Shown here: in pieces, positions 19,548 through 21,067 of the stretch
How positions within the stretch are numbered: the stretch's first letter is position 1
How the letters are laid out: each line of letters starts with the position of its first letter
Source: a virus
IMG/VR virus record: IMGVR_UViG_3300020347_000022
Location: 1-28,278 of that record
Direction: 5' to 3' (one strand)
Length of the DNA stretch: 28,278 nucleotides
Position numbers and translations under genes: made by a program
Notes under the pieces: generated by a model
What the model was told of the DNA's origin: nothing
Seen by the model: only the letters and a program-made list of their open reading frames with translations
The model's database searches: none

Positions 19548-19937
19548 ATGTCACTATTAGAATCGTTAGTCGAAGTATCATTGGATGATCAAGAAGACTT
19601 TTTAAAAATTAGAGAAACACTCACTAGAATTGGAGTTGCCTCTAAAAAAGACAGGAAATTATATCAATCCTGTCACATTCTCCACAAGCAGGGTAAATAC
19701 TACATCGTTCACTTCAAGGAACTATTTAAACTTGATGGAAAGTCTTCTGATTTTTCTGAGAACGATAGAGCTAGAAGAAATACAATTGTAAACTTACTCA
19801 AGGAGTGGGGATTAATTGATATAGTAAAAGAAGATGTGTATGAAGATGCACCGATTTCTCAGATTAAAATTATCTCACATAAAGAGAAAAATGAATGGGA
19901 ATTAGTACCTAAATATAATATAGGTAGAAAAAGATAA
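19548..19937 (+). CDS. regA: Translational repressor RegA
   Basis: RegA binds the start regions of many early phage mRNAs, including those of replication proteins, and blocks their translation. The 129-residue product is very close to T4 RegA (122): VSLDDQEDFLKIRETLTRIG, the highly conserved LYQSCHIL and KYYIVHFKE, KEWGLIDIV, and the C-terminal KNEWELVPKYNIG. It starts two bases after gene 62, as in T4. Its mRNA targets cannot be read reliably from this sequence. Confidence 0.97.
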   Translation: MSLLESLVEVSLDDQEDFLKIRETLTRIGVASKKDRKLYQSCHILHKQGKYYIVHFKELFKLDGKSSDFSENDRARRNTIVNLLKEWGLIDIVKEDVYEDAPISQIKIISHKEKNEWELVPKYNIGRKR

Positions 19938-19952
19938 TACAGAGGATATATT

Positions 19953-20492
19953 ATGGCAAAGTGGGCAGAAATACCAGTATCACAAAAATCAACATCATTA
20001 AAATGTTATAAATTATTTGCGGAAGCACATCTTCCAGTTATGGGGTCAGAATGGGCAGCCTGTTTTGATCTCAGAGCATCATTACTTGGTAATGAACCAA
20101 TAAAATATTATGACGAATGGAATATAAAGAAAACTGCGACTGTCGAAGATGGAAATATCATACTCTATAGTGGACAAAGAATGTTAGTGCCTACTGGGCT
20201 AATATTTAATTTACCAGAAGATATGTCAATGAGAATACATCCACGTTCTGGATTGTCTTTAAAAAATGGAATTGTGATTGCTAATTGTGAAGGTGTTGTT
20301 GATTCTGATTACGTTGAGCAAACATATGTAATGTTGCATAACGTATCAATGAAAACTTTTCTTATTGAAGATGGAATGAGGATCGCCCAAGCAGAACTTG
20401 TATATAATGATCCAGTCAGAATAGAAGAAATTTTCGATAGACCAGAGCAAAAAACTTCAAGAAAAGGCGGCTTTGGTTCGACAGGACTGTAA
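19953..20492 (+). CDS. dut: dUTPase (deoxyuridine triphosphatase)
   Basis: This trimeric enzyme hydrolyses dUTP to dUMP, keeping uracil out of DNA and supplying the dTMP pathway. The 179-residue product shows all five motifs: ACFDLRA (36-42), HPRSGLSLKNG (96-106), VVDSDYVEQ (115-123), MRIAQAEL (142-149) and the C-terminal RKGGFGSTG (170-178). It is longer than many dUTPases (about 150) because of an insertion near 48-75. AGAGGA precedes the start by about ten bases. It ends the 45-44-62-regA-dut run; the hsp20 leader follows. Confidence 0.95.
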   Translation: MAKWAEIPVSQKSTSLKCYKLFAEAHLPVMGSEWAACFDLRASLLGNEPIKYYDEWNIKKTATVEDGNIILYSGQRMLVPTGLIFNLPEDMSMRIHPRSGLSLKNGIVIANCEGVVDSDYVEQTYVMLHNVSMKTFLIEDGMRIAQAELVYNDPVRIEEIFDRPEQKTSRKGGFGSTGL

Positions 20493-20519
20493 TTTTTATT
20501 ATATATAGTATTAGGATCG

Positions 20520-20605
20520 CCGATTCCTTCGCGCAATTGCGGTAAAATCGGTTTGGTACTCTAACGAGGCCTATTTCAAAACCTTGCTTAACAGGAGGAA
20601 AAAAC
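20520..20605 (+). promoter_or_regulatory. Structured hsp20 leader, candidate ROSE-like RNA thermometer
   Basis: The 113-base gap before hsp20 holds nested pairing. CCGATT (20520-20525) pairs with AATCGG (20546-20551) around the palindrome CGCAATTGCG (20532-20541). Directly before the start codon, TTGCT (20584-20588) faces the ribosome binding site AGGAGG (20593-20598) across a TAAC loop: T588-A593, C587-G594, G586 opposite G595, T585-A596, T584-G597, C583-G598. A U(U/C)GCU box with a G opposite a Shine-Dalgarno G is the mark of ROSE thermometers, which control small heat-shock genes. The pairing is seen in the sequence; temperature control is inference. Confidence 0.55.
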
Positions 20606-21067
20606 ATGGTTACGAAATTTAAAACTTTAGACCCTTTTATGCGTTATAGTGTTGGGTTTGATAGATTGTTTAATGAACTTGAGCTTCAGTCTCAAACAAC
20701 AACGCAAAACTATCCCCCATACAATGTAGTCAAAGGCACCGATAGTGATTATCGTATTGAAATTGCTGCATCTGGATTTTCAGAAGAAGAACTTGATGTT
20801 GAAGTTAAAGAAGATACCTTAACCGTTACTGGTACTAAAGACGATACAACAGATGTAAGAAATTATTTGCATAAGGGAATTTCGTCTAGAAACTTTGTAA
20901 GAACATTTACTCTCAACCCAGATGTTGTAGTGAATGGTGCTAAACTAGTGAATGGAATGCTTGTTGTAGAATTAGAGCATGTTATTCCAGAAGAGAAGCA
21001 GCCTAGAAAGATTGCTATCAATCAATCTAAAGGTAAAAAGTCAAAGAAAACTCTTTTGACTGAATAA
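20606..21067 (+). CDS. hsp20: Small heat-shock protein Hsp20 (IbpA-like)
   Basis: Small heat-shock proteins hold unfolding proteins without ATP. The 153-residue product has the IbpA-type N-terminus (DPFMRYSVGFDRLFNEL), the alpha-crystallin domain starting at NYPPYNVV, the strand motif GMLVVEL (117-123) and a C-terminal I-A-I (136-138) used for oligomer contacts. A basic tail follows. Hsp20 is common in T4-like marine phages. The strong AGGAGG lies in a possible thermometer hairpin. A G/C hairpin ends the unit. Confidence 0.95.
   Translation: MVTKFKTLDPFMRYSVGFDRLFNELELQSQTTTQNYPPYNVVKGTDSDYRIEIAASGFSEEELDVEVKEDTLTVTGTKDDTTDVRNYLHKGISSRNFVRTFTLNPDVVVNGAKLVNGMLVVELEHVIPEEKQPRKIAINQSKGKKSKKTLLTE

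Follow-up and report, generated by a model that had tools for sequence, protein, structure and literature searches.

According to a 2014 review, ROSE elements always accompany small heat-shock genes of bacteria (PMC4166951). In the short ROSE-like element of Pseudomonas ibpA (ROSE_3; PMC3669281) a stable hairpin I is followed by a hairpin II, in which a U(U/C)GCU box pairs with the Shine-Dalgarno (SD) sequence, 5' of an IbpA-type small heat-shock gene. When such Pseudomonas elements were tested hairpin I stayed folded and hairpin II melted, and deletions stabilizing hairpin II locked the element shut (PMC3669281). The enterobacterial ibpA element (ROSE_2) likewise has a UCGCU box over the SD, again in a small heat-shock gene leader. 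In the ROSE-like and ROSE-G elements of ABC transporter genes the SD faces UUGCU or CUGCU, one G staying unpaired, and stabilizing changes abolish regulation (PMC11342760, PMC12857270). Temperature-sensitive phage leader RNAs have been described for lambda cIII, SPbeta blyA and a gut Caudoviricetes sigma70 gene (PMC4166951, PMC11182007), the blyA thermometer being counted in 2024 as only the second known RNA thermometer of a phage genome (PMC11182007).

The window, the whole 28,278-nt stretch of DNA analyzed here, is a fragment of a marine T4-like phage with the gene order clamp-loader, RegA, dUTPase, hsp20, DNA polymerase, and its DNA polymerase is ~51% identical to cyanophage polymerases. 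A preliminary description had proposed a ROSE-like RNA thermometer preceding a small heat-shock gene, and the identity of that gene was confirmed: hsp20 (20606–21067, plus strand, ATG at 20606) encodes 153 amino acids with an alpha-crystallin domain (PF00011, E 6e-18), so that the leader lies upstream of a small heat-shock gene as ROSE-like elements do. Read 5' to 3' on the plus strand, the leader comprises a T4-like late-promoter-like motif, TATATATA (20500–20507), just upstream of the structured region, a nested hairpin (20519–20552), hairpin I (20555–20571) and the SD hairpin CCUUGCU-UAAC-AGGAGG (20582–20598), here termed hairpin II. ROSE-like elements have two to four 5' UTR hairpins including one or more stable upstream hairpins; this arrangement is present here, and both upstream hairpins covary.

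In hairpin II the anti-SD box CCUU[G]CU (20582–20588) is joined by the loop UAAC (20589–20592) to the SD AGGAGG (20593–20598). The box includes the UUGCU motif (TTGCT in the DNA, 20584–20588), and both motifs lie where they had been reported to lie; in the bulged-G register the pairing takes in all six SD bases, one pair being U-G, and leaves G20586 unpaired opposite the SD. The window therefore has the U(U/C)GCU box, the imperfect SD pairing and the unpaired G of ROSE-like elements. Scans with five phage Hsp20 proteins, together with annotated records, yielded 407 hsp20 leaders of at least 60 nt, which were clustered at about 72% identity into 71 non-redundant clusters. UYGCU was found at the expected place in 374 of the 407 leaders and UYGCA in 22 more, compared with UYGCU in 47 of 1081 other SD-bearing genes of the same loci, and 67 of the 71 clusters have a UYGCW box. 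Box-less clusters include the variants ACGCU and UUACU, and in L325, among the box-less leaders, the element is displaced upstream by one gene and precedes a phasin-like gene. Complete 6/6 pairing between box and SD was observed in 39/68 non-redundant phage hsp20 leaders and in 9/193 other genes of the same loci. Box and SD also change together, UGGAGG occurring with CCUUGCA, AAGGAC with GUCGCUU and AGGAGG with CCUUGCU, although CCUUGCA is a possible, not a fixed, partner of UGGAGG. At the second inner position U-A pairs occur in 47 cases, A-U in 10 and G-C in 2 (59/67 paired versus 40.8 expected); since the box U, Y, G and C were fixed by the regular expression used for selection, the evidence in these box/SD figures comes from the flanking and inner pairs alone.

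Hairpin I (20555–20571, plus strand) is deeply conserved and was absent from the preliminary description. Its sequence in the window is GG-U-A-CUC-UAAC-GAG-G-CC, with a bulged U, an A.G mismatch that is G.G in most relatives, and a UAAC loop between CUC and GAG, and it corresponds to the UGCC...GGG hairpin found in other phages, where the order is stem, bulged U, G.G, CC, loop, GG, stem and the loop is often UUCG, UAAC or GAAA. The hairpin takes the form 'UACUC/GAGG' in the window and the forms 'UGCUC/GAGG' (L008 and L014) and 'UACC/GGG' (L015) in sister lineages. Base pairing was assessed in two alignments. In A3, an 11-sequence seed aligned by sequence alone with rows picked for clean register, 94.5% of cells were paired versus 79.4% after shuffling. 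A4 contains 63 phage elements, with one Pseudomonas-type sequence (L089) among its 63 rows; as it was fitted to the model it leans towards structure, and it gave 92.0% of cells paired versus 71.7% shuffled, with 188 versus 51 two-sided cells. The observed covariation score was reached by 0/500 shuffles, and slid structures scored far lower (in A4 at most 0.168 versus 0.498). Hairpin I showed two-sided changes at 7/8 pairs in A4, with 90% of cells paired, and at 2/6 pairs in the window lineage. Absence of compensatory changes from related leaders had been named as grounds for rejecting the element; such changes are present in both hairpins.

The nested 5' hairpin (20519–20552, plus strand), which had been taken to add to the resemblance to ROSE elements, consists of an outer stem (20519–20525 with 20546–20552) and an inner stem (20532–20534 with 20539–20541). 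It is real, with 100% of cells paired in the window lineage and two-sided changes at 6/10 pairs among the sister phages (5/7 outer, 1/3 inner), but it was observed solely in the window phage's own lineage and is thus a lineage-specific addition rather than part of the ROSE core. Its stems vary, whilst its internal loop, UCCNUC/GUAAAA (20525–20530, 20542–20547), is almost invariant and is possibly a binding or tertiary-contact site.

Covariance models were then searched. The first model, R1, did not find the window, its seeds being mostly without the shorter 'UGCUC/GAGG' hairpin. A second model, R2, was derived from A4 with the window's lineage left out (neither the window nor L001–L029 was used), and found the sister leaders at E 2e-9 to 1e-7 (L015, 37.1 bits; L008, 36.3 bits; L014, 31.4 bits). 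At the window and its near-identical copies the R2 score was a weak 18.4 bits, below the 20.2 bits of a coding-region match at 20179–20218, so that this score by itself says little for the window, whose case rests on its position and on the sister phages. The match at 20179–20218 was rejected as an element, as it lies in the dUTPase frame over VPTG codons and is without a box; a hairpin-I look-alike there, UUAG-U-GCC-UACU-GGG-CUAA, was taken as chance. In each of S-RSM4, S-CAM8, Melnitz-3, S-N03, S-CREM1 and AG-345-P14 R2 gave exactly one match, at hsp20; all six leaders were in its training set and the result demonstrates specificity, not discovery. A search of 150 Pseudomonadota genomes yielded five matches at E<=1e-4, each immediately 5' of an IbpA-type small heat-shock gene whose product is 81–86% identical to a Pseudomonas-type protein, and a scan of genome contigs identified one alphaproteobacterial relative that itself carries a ROSE-type leader. 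Five phage-collection records (AGRM01000003.1, OR851202.1, MG065691.1, MG065686.1 and OQ572409.1) carry a bacterial-looking hsp20, similar to Salmonella or Pseudomonas ibpA, and probably represent host contamination or mislabelling.

The Rfam models RF02523, RF01832 and RF00435 gave no match to the window leader even at E<=10, the sole ROSE trace being a fragmentary match of 9.7 bits in another part of the window, which does not reach the gathering score. With ROSE_3 (RF02523), however, leaders of L032, L055, L059, L076, Melnitz-3 and C48C1 scored 26.8–38.6 bits, below the 43-bit cut-off but with per-genome E values of 5e-8 to 1e-4, with no match in the S-RSM4, S-CAM8, S-N03 and S-WAM2 records. 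ROSE_2 (RF01832) gave no significant phage-leader match (best L062, E 1.1). As positive controls, Salmonella ibpA scored 95.2 bits with ROSE_2 and the Pseudomonas phage Y7 record 69.2 bits with ROSE_3. The suggested comparison with Rfam thus gave no match for the window itself and sub-threshold matches for some of its relatives, and the leader is accordingly termed a ROSE-type phage variant rather than a member of an Rfam family. Taken with the conservation, the covarying hairpins and the model matches in sister phages, these sub-threshold ROSE_3 matches support the proposal of a ROSE-like element before a phage hsp20 gene. The accompanying remark that such an element would be unusual in a lytic phage does not hold, as it is the rule among the hsp20-bearing T4-like phages examined.

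Elements were also detected before other phage genes. R1 and R2 placed one before dnaK in L052 (982–1035), L076 (974–1027; Hsp70 E 2e-255) and L080 (968–1006), hsp20 then being under its own element. In L055 (795–990) the element precedes an apparent dnaK remnant followed by groES, groEL and hsp20, and in L059 (783–983) and L058 (255–451) a similar remnant followed by a groES-like gene; the tiny ORFs at these loci (MSKHIYVT, MSKQPFLT and MSKQSYLT) look like remnants of a dnaK start. Small phasin-like genes are preceded by the element in L429 (1487–1800), L316 (1186–1487), L325 (1177–1454), L444 and L445, and at some of these loci they seem to form an operon with hsp20; a Pfam phasin match was seen in L429 only and was weak (E 0.0036). 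These genes are possibly extra members of a phage stress regulon. Three such elements occur in one 317-kb phage. With similar switches before hsp20 in nearly all related phages examined and before other chaperone genes in some large phages, phages appear to have their own protein-stress control. A further reading, which seems to us rather unlikely, is that in marine T4-like and large phages shared ROSE-type leaders join the hsp20, dnaK and phasin-like genes of a genome in a small post-transcriptional regulon, with Hsp20 as a trans-acting repressor gauging unfolded virion protein, so that the thermometer would monitor protein folding during the lytic cycle. A glutamine riboswitch (RF01739, 54.7 bits) lies near the start of one hsp20-bearing phage locus (L051, 56–104, minus strand), and an annotated glnA riboswitch is also near hsp20 in S-CREM1 (L093).

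The motif TATAWATA, the core of T4-like late promoters, occurs 40–110 nt upstream of hsp20 in 32/71 non-redundant leaders versus 4/192 other gene starts. It is mostly at -64 to -72 from the start codon, just before hairpin I, and is near -106 in the window lineage owing to the extra 5' hairpin between motif and hairpin I. The motif presumably acts as a promoter, and its position directly before the structures suggests that the hsp20 mRNA probably begins at the structured element.

On melting of the SD hairpin with temperature, thermodynamic folding gave no clear signal. ViennaRNA gave an opening energy for the window SD at 15 °C of 5.4 kcal/mol when the folded leader ended at the start codon and of about 1.4 kcal/mol with 30 coding bases included. 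The proposed folding check thus found the SD closed, but weakly so and no more than in ordinary phage genes, the median at 15 °C being 3.9 kcal/mol for phage hsp20 SDs versus 3.4 for other genes (p 0.28); ViennaRNA gives no credit to G.G pairs, and opening energies were not used as support. An alternative pairing of AACC (20580–20583) with GGUU (20608–20611) competes in the window. A long stem of AUUUC..AACC with GGUU..GAAAU (20573–20583, 20608–20622), reaching the first codons, is possible, and in L015 GUAC..AACC could instead pair with GGUU..GUAC.

The window leader is very probably a cis-regulatory RNA of the ROSE type carried by the phage, which heat, the loss of bound Hsp20 or both would open. 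Its anatomy is that of the Pseudomonas elements, which suggests the same action, and by this analogy thermosensing is plausible but unproven. A late-type promoter would start the mRNA just upstream of a stable stem, made up in the window lineage of two stems (20519–20552 and the core hairpin I, 20555–20571), and the weak next hairpin would tie the SD to the UUGCU box with its unpaired G and U-G pair. Closed, hairpin II would load ribosomes poorly and little Hsp20 would be made; it would open because the weak helix melts on warming, and/or because repression by bound Hsp20 is lost when Hsp20 is busy with unfolded protein, supplying chaperone late in infection, during bulk virion protein synthesis. 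The comparisons show the structure, its conservation, its covariation and its position; we infer repression by the leader and its opening by heat, with autoregulation as a possible second control.

That second trigger is suggested by a conserved arginine. E. coli IbpA represses its own translation via the ibpA 5' UTR, Arg93 being required both for repression and for binding to the leader (PMC10474464), and IbpB, which is without self-repression activity, has Gln at this position. At the aligned position 69 of 72 phage Hsp20 clusters have Arg (Arg95 in the window) and 3 have Lys. The same RNA might therefore respond to a signal other than temperature, Hsp20 repressing its own leader until unfolded virion protein titrates it off, an aggregation sensor of the kind shown for E. 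coli IbpA. The late-promoter placement and the small variation of marine temperature during one infection favour such a sensor, whereas the sister lineage L015 has Lys at the Arg95 position, where Lys is no substitute for Arg in E. coli, and the arginine could be kept for chaperone reasons. We consider this account a serious contender, with a probability somewhat short of even, and heat opening and Hsp20 repression may both act.

It is improbable that the hairpins do no more than stabilize hsp20 mRNA at its 5' end and aid ribosome standby, the box/SD pairing being too weak to regulate. Stabilization of mRNA has been suggested for ROSE 5' hairpins (PMC3669281), and the predicted SD closure is as weak as in other phage genes; however, equally weak, G-interrupted pairing regulates in the tested Pseudomonas elements (PMC3669281), and stabilization leaves the near-universal UYGCU box and its compensatory changes with the SD unexplained. 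RegA, a phage translational repressor, acts at ribosome binding sites, and regA (19548–19937, PF01818) is just upstream of the leader in the window and also near hsp20 in several cyanophages. A RegA binding site nevertheless accounts neither for the compensatory changes in two hairpins and the bacterial ROSE model matches nor for the same element before phage dnaK and phasin-like genes, and is very unlikely. Least probable of all is chance resemblance with shared leader ancestry and no RNA structure, which the window's 18.4 bits, comparable to the coding-region match, would allow and which the shuffled and slid controls speak strongly against.

The ROSE-type reading of the leader can be set against the described systems. 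Enterobacterial ROSE_2 differs in being longer and multi-hairpin; a shared feature is GCCUGAUGGGUG, which the Salmonella leader also has upstream. The ABC transporter elements control other genes and were reported from bacteria only, phages being unmentioned in those reports. A literature search, outside which most subscription papers lay and which thus leaves priority uncertain, found no description of ROSE elements in cyanophages or T4-like phages, and the leader is not discussed in the cyanophage small heat-shock protein literature checked. Thermosensing and chaperone autoregulation should be separable in this system, in which temperature hardly varies during infection, and the leader offers a handle on the role and timing of phage Hsp20. 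In hairpin I the Pseudomonas-type leader L089 shares with the phages the U bulge, the G.G mismatch and a CCG/CGG cap; relative to Pseudomonas ROSE_3, hairpin II of the phage elements is AU-rich, the window lineage has an additional 5' hairpin, a T4-type late-promoter motif takes the place of a sigma32 promoter, and in some phages the elements are also used before dnaK and phasin-like genes. The lambda cIII, SPbeta blyA and sigma70 leaders are single cases, none before hsp20 and not described in those reports as ROSE-type, whereas a conserved ROSE-type leader on the hsp20 genes of several hundred sequenced phages, and on phage dnaK and phasin-like genes as well, would represent much the broadest use of such an RNA by phages.
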